Shown here piece after piece: positions 3,703-64,000 of a DNA stretch of 64,000 nucleotides. Position 1 is the first letter of the stretch; each line of letters begins with the position of its first letter. The stretch is from positions 3,315,001-3,379,000 of the forward strand of contig NZ_CP007031.1 of NCBI RefSeq assembly GCF_000224005.2, read 5' to 3'. This DNA is from Marichromatium purpuratum 984. GTDB taxonomy: Bacteria > Pseudomonadota > Gammaproteobacteria > Chromatiales > Chromatiaceae. A program made the position numbers and the translations under genes. Below the pieces are notes generated by a model that saw nothing but the letters and a program-made list of their open reading frames with translations, had not been told where the DNA came from and did not search any database.

Positions 3703-4743
3703 ATGACCGAGACGATCGAGATCACCCGCCCCGACGACTGGCACCTGCACCTGCGCGACGGCGCGGCGATGGCCGATGTGGTGGGACACAGCGCGCGCCA
3801 GTTCGCGCGCGCCATCATCATGCCCAACCTCAAGCCGCCGGTGACCGACACCGCCCTGGCGCTCGCCTATCGTGAGCGCATCCTGGCGGCACTGCCGGAG
3901 GGGAGCGGCTTCGAGCCGCTGATGACGCTCTATCTCACCGACCTCACCCGGCCTGAGGAGATCGACAGGGCACGCGCCAGCGGCGCGGTGGCCGCCTGCA
4001 AGCTCTACCCGGCCGGCGCCACCACCAACTCCGACAGCGGCGTCACCGACATCGCCCGCATCGCCCCGGTGCTCGAGGCGATGCAGCGCAACGCCATGCC
4101 GCTGCTGGTGCACTGCGAGGTCACCGACCCCGAGGTCGACATCTTCGAGCGCGAACAGCGCTTCATCGATGACAAGCTGGTGCCGCTGCTGCGCGACTTC
4201 CCCGAGCTGAAGGTGGTCTTCGAGCACGTCACCACCGCCGACGGTGTGGCCCTGGTGCGCGAGGGCCCGGAGACCCTGGGCGCCACCATCACCCCGCACC
4301 ACCTGCGCTACAACCGCAACGCTCTGCTCGCCGGCGGCATCCGTCCGCACTTCTACTGCCTGCCGGTGCTCAAGCACGAGCGTCACCGCGAGGCGCTGGT
4401 CGAGGCTGCAACCAGCGGTCATCCGCGCTTCTTCCTCGGCACCGACAGCGCCCCGCACCCGCGCACGGCCAAGCTCAGCGACTGCGGCTGCGCCGGCGCC
4501 TACAGCGCGCACGCGGCGCTGGAGCTGTATGCAGAGGTGTTCGACGAGGCCGGCGCGCTGGATCGGCTCGAGGGCTTCGCCAGTCATCACGGCGCCGACT
4601 TCTACGGACTGCCGCGCAACCAGGAACGGGTGCGGCTGACCCGCACGCCCTGGCAGGTGCCGGCGCACTATCCGTTCGGCGAGGACTGCGTGGTGCCGCT
4701 GCGTGCCGGGGAGACCCTCAGCTGGCGGCTCGAGACGGCCTGA
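3703..4743 (+). CDS. pyrC: Dihydroorotase
   Basis: A 346-residue zinc amidohydrolase that cyclises carbamoyl aspartate to dihydroorotate in de novo pyrimidine synthesis. It is the compact class seen in E. coli. Visible motifs are [10 protein letters not shown] (HxH metal site, about residue 11), [18 protein letters not shown] (carboxylated lysine site), VHCEV, FEHVTT and GTDSAPH. The start follows the pckA stop by five bases, so it is probably co-transcribed. Another pyrimidine gene, pyrF, lies about 30 kb away. Confidence 0.96.
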
Positions 4744-4800
4744 TCGGGCCGTTCTGGAAGAGGCTCTGGCGTCCCCGGGCGGGGACGCCGGATGGCGGGA

Positions 4801-5559
4801 TCAGATCTCGGCGGGACTGTCGAAGTCGATCTCGTCCCAGACGTCGCCGCCGCCTGCACCACTCGGCGGGTTGCCGTCGTGGACCAGGCTCTCACGGCGC
4901 TGCAGATAGGTCTCGCGCAGGAAGCTGTAGGGGTCGAGCGCGGCCTCCTCAAGGATATCGCTGGCATCGAGCAGGTCGGCCCGCTGATCGATCGCGCGCA
5001 GCACGACGGCTCCCCAGTAGATCTGGTTCTTCTTCAGGCTGAAGAAGGGGTCGAGCGCCACGTCACCGGCGAAGCCGAAAGTGTCGCGGATGCTGCTCGG
5101 ACCGACGATCGGCAACATGAAGTAGGCGCCGGACTCAAGCCCCCAGTAACCGAGCGTCTGACCGAAGTCCTCCTTGTAGCTCGGCAGCCCGACGTTGGTG
5201 GCAACGTCGAACACCCCGAGGATGCCCACGGTGGAGTTGATGAACACTCGACCGACATCGCTGCCGGCGCGCGACATCTTGAACTGCAACACGTTGTTGA
5301 CCGCCGAGGTCATGTCGGCGACATTGGCGAAGAAGTTGGTCACGCCGCGATCGACCGGCTCCGGCGTGACCTTGCGATAGGCGCGCGCCGTGGGTTGGAT
5401 GAAGGCCTTGTCGAAATCGCTGTTGAAGCGATAGACGGCCCGGTTGTAAGGCTCGAGCGGGTCGCGTGGATCGCTCACGCGCGCCGCGCCGGAGGCGCAA
5501 CCGGCCAGCAGCAGTGCCGCCCCGAAGATTCCCAGCCACTTGAACCCGCGTGTGTCCAT
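4801..5559 (-). CDS. mlaA: Phospholipid-binding lipoprotein MlaA
   Basis: A 252-residue outer-membrane lipoprotein of the Mla retrograde phospholipid transport system, which removes misplaced phospholipids from the outer leaflet. The signal peptide ends in a lipobox (LLLAGC, about residue 20). The family core follows: DPLEPYNRAVYRFN, VDRGVTNFFANV, FINSTVGILGVFDVA, EDFGQTLGYWG. The ATG chosen has an AAGGA site. An open extension upstream lacks signal-peptide character. The gene is divergent from rnt. Confidence 0.95.
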   Translation of the reverse strand: MDTRGFKWLGIFGAALLLAGCASGAARVSDPRDPLEPYNRAVYRFNSDFDKAFIQPTARAYRKVTPEPVDRGVTNFFANVADMTSAVNNVLQFKMSRAGSDVGRVFINSTVGILGVFDVATNVGLPSYKEDFGQTLGYWGLESGAYFMLPIVGPSSIRDTFGFAGDVALDPFFSLKKNQIYWGAVVLRAIDQRADLLDASDILEEAALDPYSFLRETYLQRRESLVHDGNPPSGAGGGDVWDEIDFDSPAEI

Positions 5560-5680
5560 CTCGACGTCCTTCACCTGATTCAACGCAACGAGTCGCGATC
5601 CTACCACAGCGCAGCCCCCTGACGCGGCCGGCATGGGCAACAGGATTGGCGTTGCCGACCAAACCACTTATGCTGTCGCG

Positions 5681-6346
5681 ATGAACGGTGAAGAACAGAT
5701 TCCAGACGGCATTGCACAGCGCTTTCGCGGCTTCCTGCCGGTCGTCGTCGATGTCGAGACCGCGGGCTTCGACGCCCAGCGCCACGCCTTGCTCGAGATC
5801 GCCGCGGTGGTCATCCGCATGGCGCCCGATGGCCGGCTCGAACCCGCGCCCGCGGTCCATTGCCACGTGCTGCCCTTCGTCGGCGCCGAACTCGACCCCA
5901 GGGCGCTCGCCTTCAACGGCATCGACCCGGACCATCCGCTGCGTGACGCCGTGCCCGAACACGAGGCGCTCAACCGCATCCTCTCCCCGGTCCGCAAGGC
6001 GGTGAAGAACACCGGCTGCACCCGCGCCATCCTGGTCGGGCACAACGCCCACTTCGACCTCGGCTTCATCAAGGCGGCGGTCGATCGTACCGAGTTCAAG
6101 CGCAACCCCTTCCATGCCTTCAGCGTCTTCGACACCGTCAGCCTCAGCGGGCTGATGTTCGGCCAGACCGTGCTCGCCAACGCCGCGCGCGCCGCCGGGC
6201 TCGGCTGGAGCAACAGCGAGGCGCACTCGGCGCTCTACGACGCCGAGCAGACCGCGCGACTGTTCTGCACCATCGTCAACCGCTGGAACGAGTTCGATCC
6301 ACTGCGCTTCTGGGAGAGCGGCGAGCGACTGCCCGCCCCCGAGTGA
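5681..6346 (+). CDS. rnt: Ribonuclease T
   Basis: A 221-residue DEDD-family 3'-5' exoribonuclease that trims the 3' ends of tRNA and 5S/23S rRNA. Motifs visible: [11 protein letters not shown] (Exo I, about residue 22), [10 protein letters not shown] (Exo II), and [14 protein letters not shown] (Exo III, HxxxxD). The start [10 protein letters not shown] is chosen because it aligns with the family N-terminus. There is no strong Shine-Dalgarno before it, and a TATGCT-like -10 lies within about 15 bases, so a very short leader is possible. It is convergent with grxD, often an rnt neighbour in gammaproteobacteria. Confidence 0.94.
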
Positions 6347-6359
6347 GACCCAGGCGGCG

Positions 6360-6695
6360 CTAGTCGGCGCCGCCCTCGGCGCGCGCCGCCGCCTGCTCCA
6401 TCATCGGCTTGAGTTCGCCCCCGGCATGCAGCTCGAGGGTGATGTCGCAGCCACCGACCAGCTCGCCGTCGATATAGAGCTGGGGAAAGGTCGGCCAGTC
6501 GGCATAGCGCGGCAGGTGCTCGAAGATCTCCGGGTCCTGCAACACGTTGACATAGGCGAAGGGCACGCCGCATTCCTGGAGTGCCTGCGCCGCACGCATC
6601 GAGAACCCGCACTGCGGGAACTGCGGCGTGCCCTTCATGTAGATCACCACCGGGTTGTTCTTGACCTGCTCGCCAATACGCTCCAACACGTCCAT
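6360..6695 (-). CDS. grxD: Monothiol glutaredoxin (Grx4/GrxD type)
   Basis: A 111-residue thioredoxin-fold protein of the CGFS class, which binds and transfers [2Fe-2S] clusters with glutathione. Visible motifs: KGTPQFPQCGFS (about residue 21, single active cysteine), WPTFPQLYI, and GGCDI near the C-terminus. Length is typical. It ends 13 bases from the convergent rnt stop. Confidence 0.96.
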   Translation of the reverse strand: MDVLERIGEQVKNNPVVIYMKGTPQFPQCGFSMRAAQALQECGVPFAYVNVLQDPEIFEHLPRYADWPTFPQLYIDGELVGGCDITLELHAGGELKPMMEQAAARAEGGAD

Positions 6696-6761: not shown

Positions 6762-8552
6762 TCAACCGGCGCCGACGCCATCGACATTGCGCTGCAGCCA
6801 CAGCTCGAGCGCGGCGAGGTGCCACAGCTTGTTACCTTGGATGCGGGTGTGGTGCATGTCGGGGGCGGCGAGCAGCTGCTCGATGTAGTCGCGCCGGTAG
6901 AGCCCGCGCTCGCGACAGGCGCGTGAGTCGAGCAGCTCGCGCATGAAGGCGAGGAAGGGCCCGCGCACGTACTTGAGCGCGGGCATCGGGAAATAGCCCT
7001 TGGGGCGATCGATCACCGCCGCCGGCAGCAGCCCGCGCGCCAGCGCCTTGAGCGGGTACTTGCCACCCTCGCGCAGCTTCAGCTCGGGCGGGCAGCGCGC
7101 GGCCAGCTCGACGAGCCGATGGTCGAGGAAGGGCACCCGCGCCTCCAGCCCCCAGGCCATGGTCATGTTGTCGACCCGCTTGACCGGGTCGTCGACGATC
7201 AGGGTGGTGACATCGAGACGCAGCACCGCATCCATGAAGGTATCGGCACCGGGCGCGGTGAGCGCCGGGCCGATCAGCTCGGCGGTGTGATCGGCACCGC
7301 CGTGGGCAGCCGCGACCATCCGCAGGTACTCCGCGTGATCGCGGTCGAAATAGTGCTTGGCGAAGCGCTCGAGCCGGCTGCCGCCGGCCTCGGCCTGCAT
7401 CCGCGGATACCAGAAGTAGCCGCCGAAGACCTCGTCGGCCCCCTGCCCCGACTGCACCACCTTGATCTCGCGCGAGACCTGCTCGGCGAGCAGATAGAAG
7501 GCCACCGCGTCCTGGCCGAACATCGGCTCGGCCATGGCGTCGATCGCCTCGGGCAGACGTTCGAGCACCTGGTCGTTGGGCACCTGGAAGCGCTGGTGGC
7601 GGGTGGCGTAATGGGCCGCGACCTGGTCGGAGTAGAAGAACTCGCTGCCCGACTCCTCCGGGGTGTCCTCGAAACCGACCGAGAAGGTGCGCAGATCGCT
7701 CACCCCGGTCTCGGCGAGCAGCGCCACCAGCAGACTGGAGTCGAGCCCGCCGGAGAGCAGCACCCCGACCGGTACGTCGGCGACCTCGCTGCGCACCCGC
7801 ACCGCGCGGCGCAGCTCGGCATGGATCGCCTCCAGCCACTCGCCCTCGTCGCGCGGCTGCGCCGGACGCGTCGCCTCCAGCTGCCAGTAGGCCCCGCCGC
7901 TGCGTCGGCCATCGGCGTCGAGACGCAGCCAGTGGCCCGGCTCGATCTTGCGCACCCCGCGCAGGATGGTGCGCGGCGCCGGCACCACCGCGTGCAGGGT
8001 GAAGAGATGATGGAGCGCCACCGCATCGACCGCGGTATCGACCCCGCCGGCGGCCAACAGCGCCTGGGAGTTGGAGGCGAAACGCACCCGCCCGGTCTGT
8101 TCCGACCAATACAGCGGCTTGATGCCGAAGCGGTCGCGCGCGAGGATCAGCGCCCGCTCGCGCGCATCCCACAGACCGAAGGCGAACATGCCGTGGAGGC
8201 GCTCGAAGCAGCCCTCGCCCCAGGCGTGCCAGGCCTTGAGGATGACCTCGCCGTCACCCTCGGAGAAGAAGCGGTAGCCGCGCCCGACAAGCTCGGCGCG
8301 CAGTTCGCGGTGGTTGTAGATGGTGCCGTTGAACACCAGCGCGAGCCCCAGCTCGGCATCGACCATGGGTTGATTGGCACGCACCGAAAGGTCGATGATG
8401 GAGAGACGGCGGTGCCCGAGGGCCAGGGCACCGTCGCTGTAGCTGCCCCCATGGTCGGGGCCACGTCGGGTCAGGCGCGCCATCATCGTCTCGATCGCGC
8501 CAAGATCGGCCGGGGCGCCGTCGAGGCGCAACTCACCGCAGATTCCGCACAT
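6762..8552 (-). CDS. Asparagine-synthetase-like class II amidotransferase, probably N-acetylglutaminylglutamine amidotransferase
   Basis: A 596-residue cytosolic enzyme. An N-terminal class II glutaminase domain begins MCGICGE, with Cys2 as nucleophile once Met is removed. A C-terminal ATP-pyrophosphatase domain carries the PP-loop LLSGGLDSSLL (about residue 263). The overall form is AsnB-like, but segments such as VDDPVKRVDNMTMAWGLEAR and DRPKGYFPMPALKYVRGP recall the subgroup that makes the osmolyte N-acetylglutaminylglutamine amide. The partner genes for that pathway (a GNAT/ATP-grasp synthase and a peptidase) are not in this window, so plain asparagine synthase cannot be excluded. Confidence 0.8.
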   Translation of the reverse strand: MCGICGELRLDGAPADLGAIETMMARLTRRGPDHGGSYSDGALALGHRRLSIIDLSVRANQPMVDAELGLALVFNGTIYNHRELRAELVGRGYRFFSEGDGEVILKAWHAWGEGCFERLHGMFAFGLWDARERALILARDRFGIKPLYWSEQTGRVRFASNSQALLAAGGVDTAVDAVALHHLFTLHAVVPAPRTILRGVRKIEPGHWLRLDADGRRSGGAYWQLEATRPAQPRDEGEWLEAIHAELRRAVRVRSEVADVPVGVLLSGGLDSSLLVALLAETGVSDLRTFSVGFEDTPEESGSEFFYSDQVAAHYATRHQRFQVPNDQVLERLPEAIDAMAEPMFGQDAVAFYLLAEQVSREIKVVQSGQGADEVFGGYFWYPRMQAEAGGSRLERFAKHYFDRDHAEYLRMVAAAHGGADHTAELIGPALTAPGADTFMDAVLRLDVTTLIVDDPVKRVDNMTMAWGLEARVPFLDHRLVELAARCPPELKLREGGKYPLKALARGLLPAAVIDRPKGYFPMPALKYVRGPFLAFMRELLDSRACRERGLYRRDYIEQLLAAPDMHHTRIQGNKLWHLAALELWLQRNVDGVGAG

Positions 8553-62040: not shown

Positions 62041-62262
62041 GCCGAGTCCGCCATGCCACGCGGTTGACCGATTTCAATGCCCCCTCGGGGGCCGCGCCCT
62101 ACCCTCCCCGCTCTGGAAGCCGAGCGCCACACCCACCAGCTTCCGCTCTCGCGGCCCGAGGTCTCGACTCCCAAGGGATAGAGGAGACCAGCCGCCCGCC
62201 GGCGGACGCGCAAGGAGGCAGGGCCAGACACGCGCGCGATCACCGACGGAGTTTTTGAGCGC

Positions 62263-63033
62263 ATGAAACAGAGCCTGTACCAGGAACGGTATCCGGTCTA
62301 TTGTCTCGAGATCGGTCGCGAAGAGACCAGCTACGACTCGGTCGAAGCCATCTGCGACTACTTCCGCGCCTGTATCGAGCGCTACGACTCGGCGCGCTTC
62401 ATCGCCGAGTTCGATCACCACGCCCACACCAGCGCGCTGCCCGAGGGCCACGTCGGCGAGGGCATCCTCGCGGCCAAGAACCTGATCTTCTGCTTCGGCA
62501 TCTCGTTGCCGGACGTTCAGGTGCTGGCGCTGCGTCCCCGCTCGATCGGCATCGCCGAGACCGAGTCCGGCTTCGTCATCACCTTCATGGAAGCCCCGAT
62601 GCCGGTGGTCAACGCCGCGATGGAGGACTGGGCCTGCGGTCTCTGCGACAGACATCCCCTGCCAACGACCAGCAACCGGAGCCGTGCCATGCGCATCGCC
62701 GTCACCAGCCAGAACTTCCGCACCATCACCGGACACGCCGGCAAGACCCGTCGCTTCCTCATCCTCGAGGCCGGTGCCGAGGGCGCCACCGAGATCGAGC
62801 GGCTCGATCTGCCCGCGGGCATGTCGCTGCACGACTACCACGGCGACGACCACCCACTGTTCATGCTCGGGCTCGATGCGCTGCTCACCCAGGGCGCCGG
62901 TCAGGGGTTCGTGCAGCGCATGTCGCGACAAGGTGTAGTGGTACACACCACCAGCGCCACCGATCCGTTCGAGGCCGCAACCATGCTCGCCGCCGGCAAA
63001 CTGCTCCCGGCTGCACGCCCGCACGAGCACTGA
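62263..63033 (+). CDS. Two-domain protein: unknown N-domain fused to NifX-like C-domain
   Basis: 256 residues. Residues 1-130 (MKQSLYQERYPVYCLEIGRE) form a compact domain I do not firmly recognise, with Cys-rich end EDWACGLCDR. Residues 143-256 begin MRIAVTSQNFRTITGHAGKT and look like the NifX/NifB-type cofactor-binding domain (dinitrogenase iron-molybdenum cofactor family). The junction contains CGGAG 7 bases before the internal ATG 62689, as if two genes had fused in frame or the second domain is also made separately. Placed between the FNR-like gene and cydA. Confidence 0.75.
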   Translation: MKQSLYQERYPVYCLEIGREETSYDSVEAICDYFRACIERYDSARFIAEFDHHAHTSALPEGHVGEGILAAKNLIFCFGISLPDVQVLALRPRSIGIAETESGFVITFMEAPMPVVNAAMEDWACGLCDRHPLPTTSNRSRAMRIAVTSQNFRTITGHAGKTRRFLILEAGAEGATEIERLDLPAGMSLHDYHGDDHPLFMLGLDALLTQGAGQGFVQRMSRQGVVVHTTSATDPFEAATMLAAGKLLPAARPHEH

Positions 63034-63442: not shown

Positions 63443-64000
63443 ATGCTCGACAGTACCATGATCGAACTCTCGCGGTGGCAGTTCGCCAGCACCGCGATGT
63501 ATCACTTCCTGTTCGTCCCCCTGACCCTGGGTCTGTCCTGGATCCTGGTGATCATGGAGAGCGTCTATGTGATGACCGGTCGCGAGATCTATCGCGACAT
63601 GACCAAGTTCTGGGGCAAGTTGTTCGGTATCAACTTCGCCCTCGGTGTCACCACCGGTCTGACCATGGAGTTCCAGTTCGGGACCAACTGGGCCTATTAC
63701 AGCCACTATGTCGGCGACGTCTTCGGCGCACCGCTGGCGATCGAGGGGCTGATGGCCTTCTTCCTCGAGTCGACCTTCATCGGCCTGTTCTTCCTCGGCT
63801 GGGAGCGGCTCTCCAAGCGCCAGCACCTGACCGTGACCTTCCTCACCGCGCTCGGCTCCAACCTCTCGGCGCTGTGGATCCTCATCGCCAACGGCTGGAT
63901 GCAGCACCCGGTGGGAGCTGAGTTCAGCTACGAGACCATGCGCATGGAGATGACCAGCTTCATGGAGGTGGTCTTCAATCCAGTCGCCCAGGTCAAGTTC
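63443..64000 (+). CDS. cydA: Cytochrome bd ubiquinol oxidase subunit I (partial)
   Basis: The first 186 codons of CydA, running off the right edge. [20 protein letters not shown] is the family N-terminus. The haem-ligand His lies in [12 protein letters not shown] (about residue 21), with the TM segments [12 protein letters not shown] and [11 protein letters not shown] also conserved. It reduces O2 at high affinity using quinol and contributes to microaerobic protection. GGAG precedes the ATG by 10 bases. cydB is presumably beyond the edge. Confidence 0.96.

Follow-up and report, generated by a model that had tools for sequence, protein, structure and literature searches.

The window analysed here, a stretch of 64,000 nucleotides from the purple sulfur bacterium Marichromatium purpuratum 984, carries near its downstream end a regulator gene of the FNR/CRP family, a predicted operator, a reading frame that encodes two different domains and the beginning of cydA, all on the same strand (Table 1). 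The frame is uninterrupted (256 amino acids plus a stop), and its second domain begins at an internal ATG. An earlier sequence-only reading of this DNA had proposed this arrangement, namely a stop-free frame joining two domains, the second of them opening with MRIAVTSQNFR 7 bases behind a CGGAG, and the whole flanked by an FNR-like regulator and cytochrome bd; each of these elements was found where it had been placed. A sequencing error does not account for the fused frame, since it is intact in two other Marichromatium species (95% and 90% identity). The genome of the window is a single contig of 3.78 Mb, and the nearest named genomes are those of Marichromatium gracile and M. bheemlicum.

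Table 1. The fused gene, its parts and its neighbours (positions in the window)
Feature	Position	Strand	Evidence
FNR/CRP-family regulator, 235 amino acids	61333..62040	+	Pfam PF00027 (cNMP_binding) and PF13545 (HTH_Crp_2), alignment
Predicted operator TTGACCGATTTCAA (TTGA-N6-TCAA)	62064..62077	+	Strict form present nowhere else in the genome (3.78 Mb)
Fused gene, DUF6858 + NifX-like	62263..63033	+	Open reading frame, profile matches, comparison with relatives
DUF6858 domain, residues 1-128	62263..62646	+	Pfam profile, alignment, predicted DUF302 fold
Linker, residues 129-142	62647..62688	+	Rapid protein-level drift between fused species
CGGAG, Shine-Dalgarno-like	62677..62681	+	7 nt 5' of the internal ATG; retained in 3/3 fused species
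NifX-like domain of Nitro_FeMo-Co fold; its ATG may serve as an internal start	62689..63030	+	Profile, alignment, fold match
cydA, cytochrome bd subunit I	63443..64000, continues past window end	+	Open reading frame; PF01654 match at window 63467-64951 in the whole genome

The N-terminal domain, which had been taken for an unfamiliar one, has a name: it is a full-length match to the Pfam family DUF6858 (PF21651; 177.4 bits against a gathering cut-off of 27), whose function is unassigned. In an alignment of 77 sequences, M1, H55, T56, A71, C77, G79, R91, P92, G96, P112, M113 and W123 are invariant, and D51, H52 and E110 nearly so. Structures were modelled for the DUF6858 and NifX-like halves separately. 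The DUF6858 model, built from these 77 sequences (pLDDT 92), finds its best matches among DUF302 proteins (1q9u, Z 12.4; 7tj1, Z 12.4; 1j3m, Z 10.7), against Z 8.8 for the next unrelated fold, and the structural alignments with 1q9u and 1j3m span 105 to 109 residues (109 for 1q9u). DUF6858 is predicted on this basis to have the DUF302 fold. The likeness is one of fold alone: a profile comparison with DUF302 (hhalign) gives a probability of 2.5% and E 0.019, PF03625 is absent among the Pfam matches of the N-terminal half up to E 1, and PDB sequence searches with DUF6858, as a single sequence and as a profile, returned nothing convincing. The entry 7tj1, which ranks with the DUF302 structures, is titled as a putative CrcB fluoride transporter, a title that may be wrong. 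As to where DUF302 genes lie, part of one report places them in sox clusters of sulfur oxidisers (PMC5037610), and a protein table in a micro-oxia study of Bradyrhizobium lists one beside ccoG/fixG (PMC6515984).

For the C-terminal half (residues 143 to 256) a domain of NifX/NifB type had been proposed, and the part of that proposal that concerns the fold holds. The model, built from 83 sequences (pLDDT 95), matches NifX in the NifEN complex, NafY, PH0822 and TM1816 (9ian_F at E 1.1e-5 and TM 0.66; 2yx6, 1p90 and 1o13 at E < 0.001). The assignment to NifX or NifB does not stand: the equivalog profile of NifX (TIGR02663) gives 16 bits against a cut-off of 112, and that of NifB (TIGR01290), of which only the C-terminal part aligns, 19 bits against 344. 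The general family profile PF02579 stays below its cut-off of 26.3 as well, with 25.2 bits for the half alone and 22.7 bits in the full protein. The C-terminal half is a NifX-fold protein, not NifX or NifB. In the alignment of 83 sequences H16, A17, G18, H55 and G71 are invariant and H48 nearly invariant (domain numbering), and in an alignment with NafY the histidine of the HAG motif falls on that of the HFG motif, which is linked to cofactor binding in NafY. Relatives of this half are also carried by Azospirillum plasmids (13 records, 12 of them from Azospirillum), and in the two regions that we read no neighbour is annotated as DUF6858. Parts of transcriptome and proteome studies of Allochromatium and Thiodictyon name dinitrogenase-cofactor proteins (PMC11267869, PMC6413534). 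No link from these to the present gene could be made: Alvin_1737 and Alvin_1740 adjoin cobyrinic acid synthase genes, unlike this locus.

In most relatives the two halves are neighbouring genes. Counting identical DNA once, we found 62 distinct adjacent DUF6858/NifX-like pairs, of which 59 are two genes and three a single frame, the latter in the window genome and in two further species of Marichromatium. The 59 separate pairs are closely spaced (median 35 nt, 42 within 60 nt, 6 overlapping), and in G002, a genome assigned to Marichromatium with 72% identity over the N-terminal half, the genes are separate too. The sequence-only reading had suggested a fusion and advised a search for genomes in which the halves lie apart, and its suggestion is supported by these counts. 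Judged by this comparison two linked genes have fused in one particular lineage and, because separate genes prevail, G002 included, and every fused frame is from Marichromatium, a single stop-loss inside that lineage is the simplest history. Pairs also occur outside the order, in L122 (the same as G364) and in L077 (Rhodobium).

A few loci were kept out of the pair count. In L071 the genes are on opposite strands, and in L025 and L136 the order is SLAC1, NifX-like, FNR, DUF6858. In Endoriftia (L081:1172-1655, and L034), where the N-terminal match begins at residue 10, DUF6858 is in frame with a NifX-like start and a frameshift follows soon after, possibly an independent fusion; with the frameshift inside the NifX-like part and a draft assembly, it was not counted as a second one, and the late beginning of its N-terminal match removed it from the 62 pairs. 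The long DUF6858 frames of L171 and L172, considered as further fusions, merely include open sequence upstream of the natural start.

The regulator upstream has a CxxC, a central cysteine and an ExxSR recognition helix. Across 68 aligned sequences, that of the window included, C17, C20 and C118 are invariant (68/68) and C182 is present in 64. It reached none of the NCBIfam cut-offs for Fnr, FnrL or FixK (Fnr, 69.9 bits against 228), and the same was found for one relative. We looked for the four cluster cysteines of FNR at the positions that we assume for the E. coli protein and did not find the full set: the residue that we take to match the third N-terminal cysteine is not a cysteine.

Between the regulator and the fused gene lies the candidate operator. 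We examined 104 regions that precede DUF6858 or its SLAC1 partner. The generic site TTGA-N6-TCAA is present in 51 of them, where dinucleotide shuffles gave 0.5 on average and 3 at most, and the strict form in 37, against 0.00 in shuffles. These counts ignore kinship among the genomes and, for the strict form, use a pattern derived from these same loci; 53 of the 104 regions are without even a generic site. Where an FNR-like gene is part of the locus the generic site is found in 34 of 46 regions, against 2 of 6 in the large loci without such a gene. Each of the four genomes assigned to Marichromatium has the strict form once, at this operon. This single copy points to a putatively local, dedicated regulator and, because the site is conserved, we infer that the regulator would bind TTGA-N6-TCAA between its own gene and the module. 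Over 55 genomes the strict form has 81 matches (38 genomes with at least one), against 14 for the pattern read backwards. Judged by position, twelve of the 81 are at a DUF6858 or NifX-like locus and 69 elsewhere, and we read 20 of the latter: many are inside frames, such as ribosomal-protein and cbb3-oxidase genes, and a few precede genes without a common theme. These 20 are taken as background, and no second member of the regulon was identified among them. Before cydA in the window, a scan that allowed one mismatch gave no site. Of 48 regions upstream of NifX-like genes that DUF6858 does not directly precede, 7 have the generic site, against 0.2 expected. At four such genes (L035, L097, L103 and L109) the site is a strict operator, TTGATCATTTTCAA, which suggests shared control in trans, as read from these upstream regions.

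The surroundings of DUF6858 recur from genome to genome. Of 74 distinct loci, 47 have an FNR-like regulator directly upstream on the same strand and 13 have a SLAC1-type channel there, and in 52 the NifX-like gene follows directly; in the large loci genes were called mechanically, and these loci were mostly drawn by a search with the fused protein and are hence biased to pairs. A search with DUF6858 alone suffers less from this bias; the gene is present in 124 of 210 genomes of the order and in 4 of 398 in a sample of the phylum that includes the window genome. A NifX-like gene lies within 1.5 kb downstream at 82 of the 150 DUF6858 places listed (80 of 120 genomes), and over the 210 genomes 103 have both genes, 21 and 26 a single one and 60 neither (p 9e-15, with kinship ignored). 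Directly downstream of the NifX-like gene, cydA is found in 43 of the 132 places listed. The association of DUF6858 with cydA is weaker (69 genomes with both, 55 with DUF6858 only, 26 with cydA only), and since 55 of the 124 DUF6858-positive genomes, drafts included, have no cydA match, the bd oxidase is not the only partner. The fullest respiratory setting is that of L128, where genes for a molybdopterin oxidoreductase, Fe-S and DmsC-type subunits and two other proteins are followed by SLAC1, DUF6858, NifX-like, CydA, CydB, CydD and CydC, CydB being assigned by position and likeness. A SLAC1/TehA-type anion channel, for whose substrate sulfite is one guess, also lies between regulator and DUF6858, or directly before DUF6858, in L044, L065, L067, L187 and others besides L128. 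In L121, DUF6858 has no adjoining NifX-like gene and lies beside a metallo-beta-lactamase-fold protein and a catalase-peroxidase (6790-7476 and 4471-6633).

Comparison of these genomes of sulfur bacteria shows a module made of an FNR-like regulator with its operator, sometimes a SLAC1 channel, DUF6858, the NifX-like gene and, in many genomes, cydA. A literature search, with most subscription journals outside its coverage, returned no paper that names DUF6858 or that, by its title or the start of its abstract, deals with the module. This regulator-controlled cluster is apparently undescribed; it often adjoins cytochrome bd, an oxygen-scavenging enzyme, rather than nitrogenase.

How would such a module work? 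In the Marichromatium lineage, as the comparison shows, the stop codon was lost between two neighbours, DUF6858 and NifX-like, that would work together. A dedicated FNR-like regulator would govern the module that contains both genes, probably by binding the conserved TTGA-N6-TCAA site. The product is most likely a soluble two-domain carrier of a metal, an iron-sulfur or a sulfur species, given its folds and conserved residues: its DUF302-fold domain conserves a D-H-x2-H-T/Cys/RPR set, and its NifX-fold domain conserves histidines. Its neighbours suggest that it would be expressed once the regulator, through its thiols, detects a change in oxygen, NO or sulfide, and that it would help to sustain respiration through cytochrome bd where conditions are micro-oxic and sulfidic. 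Bd oxidases are tolerant of both sulfide and NO. Some free NifX-like protein is probably still made from the ancestral internal start. We favour, as the putative function, a metal or sulfur carrier pair for micro-oxic respiration in sulfidic habitats. The whole chain, from stop-loss fusion through a regulator-controlled carrier pair to the support of cytochrome bd-based respiration, is our leading account and a tentative one, falling a little short of probable.

Three other explanations are considered. The stop-loss may have been neutral, with ribosomes mostly restarting at the internal ATG and the two domains acting as two proteins, as in the relatives. The window and M. gracile differ at 11 of the 42 linker bases, with no bias for codon position (3, 3 and 5), against 2, 1 and 16 over the 128 codons of the N-terminal domain, and the linker has an excess of non-synonymous changes (Fisher p 0.023, 0.004 and 0.10 for three species pairs, which are not independent). 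In these alignments the linker is under relaxed constraint at the protein level. The CGGAG is intact at the same spacing in all three fused species, and this conservation in a drifting linker makes a short second product from the ATG plausible; the pattern fits a formerly intergenic stretch with a ribosome-binding site that is still used. A GGAG, GAGG or AGGA core precedes the start of the separate NifX-like gene in 29 of 59 relatives, against 9 and 5 of 59 in control windows shifted upstream and 0, 26, 27, 3, 1 and 3 of 59 in six shifted downstream. The two high values presumably come from conserved coding motifs, and because of them the count at the start itself is supportive only. What speaks against neutrality is that the same 42-nt linker has kept an open frame in all three species, a weak argument, as a stop codon seldom arises by chance in a stretch of 14 GC-rich codons. 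We regard a neutral event as quite possible, if less than likely.

The other two alternatives concern function. The cluster may serve against nitrosative or nitrite stress, with an FNR-like NO sensor, an anion channel, an NO-tolerant bd oxidase and sometimes an octaheme tetrathionate/nitrite reductase. The SLAC1-type channel and the NO tolerance of bd oxidases agree with this, as does an octaheme cytochrome of the tetrathionate reductase family (TIGR04315) that directly follows the pair in Rhodobium (L077:6733-8427) and in L113 (L113:4265-5920) is separated from the NifX-like gene by about 3.5 kb; such a neighbour was seen, however, in these two loci only, no further NO-related gene was noticed next to the module, and we consider this role unlikely. 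The protein may instead assist nitrogen fixation, carrying FeMo cofactor as NifX or NafY does, in micro-oxic diazotrophy. This would agree with the NifX/NafY fold, with the HAG histidine and with the correlation to nifH, which in the order is positive for both genes (odds ratios 4.1 and 5.8). However, the scores stay far under the nif equivalog cut-offs (for NifX, 16 bits against 112), and 31 genomes with both genes gave no nifH match at 1e-60. In the window genome nifH lies at 670390, with another PF02579 copy about 4.3 kb from it at 675489; the fused gene is 2.7 Mb away from nifH along the contig or, should the chromosome be circular, about 1.1 Mb in the opposite direction. A part in nitrogen fixation is quite improbable by our estimate. 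The sequence-only reading had suggested a redox-linked use apart from nitrogenase. The context (the remote nifH, the regulator-operator pair and cydA) supports it; because both genes correlate with nifH, independence from nitrogen fixers is not absolute.

A broader reading allows for two uses. Sulfur bacteria would have an undescribed respiratory module with a dedicated three-cysteine FNR-like sensor at its head, and the DUF302-fold/NifX-fold pair under its control would move a metallocluster or sulfane sulfur, to serve either respiration through cytochrome bd or protection from sulfide or NO. It is speculative, and we consider it rather doubtful. If it is true, a NifX-fold protein would have a job outside nitrogenase, within one polypeptide in Marichromatium; functions would be gained for DUF6858 and for the NifX-like group; and, for purple sulfur bacteria and related symbionts, a regulator-operator pair would be added that serves life under micro-oxic or sulfidic conditions. 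Proteins of the NifX fold are common outside nitrogen fixation, and the function of few of them is known. Here one is linked with another uncharacterised family through synteny, co-occurrence and a common operator and, in a single genus, through covalent fusion, the fused form being a natural sign of joint action of the two proteins. The setting, with an FNR-like regulator, cytochrome bd and, in one locus, also CydDC, suggests an assay.

Compared with known systems, the N-terminal half shares its predicted fold with DUF302 (PF03625; 1q9u, 1j3m) without a convincing sequence match; within Pfam it is a full-length member of DUF6858, from which it differs by its fusion to the NifX-like domain. 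The regulator shares with FNR regulators the cNMP and Crp HTH domains, the CxxC with the central cysteine, the ExxSR motif and the TTGA-N6-TCAA operator; unlike them, it is without one N-terminal cluster cysteine, and its strict operator occurs once in the genome. The NifX-like half shares the fold and the HAG/HFG histidine with the Nitro_FeMo-Co family PF02579 (NifX, NafY, the C-terminal domain of NifB and the orange protein), and differs from it in scoring under the curated cut-off, in the further conserved H48 and H55 and in its place outside any nif cluster.
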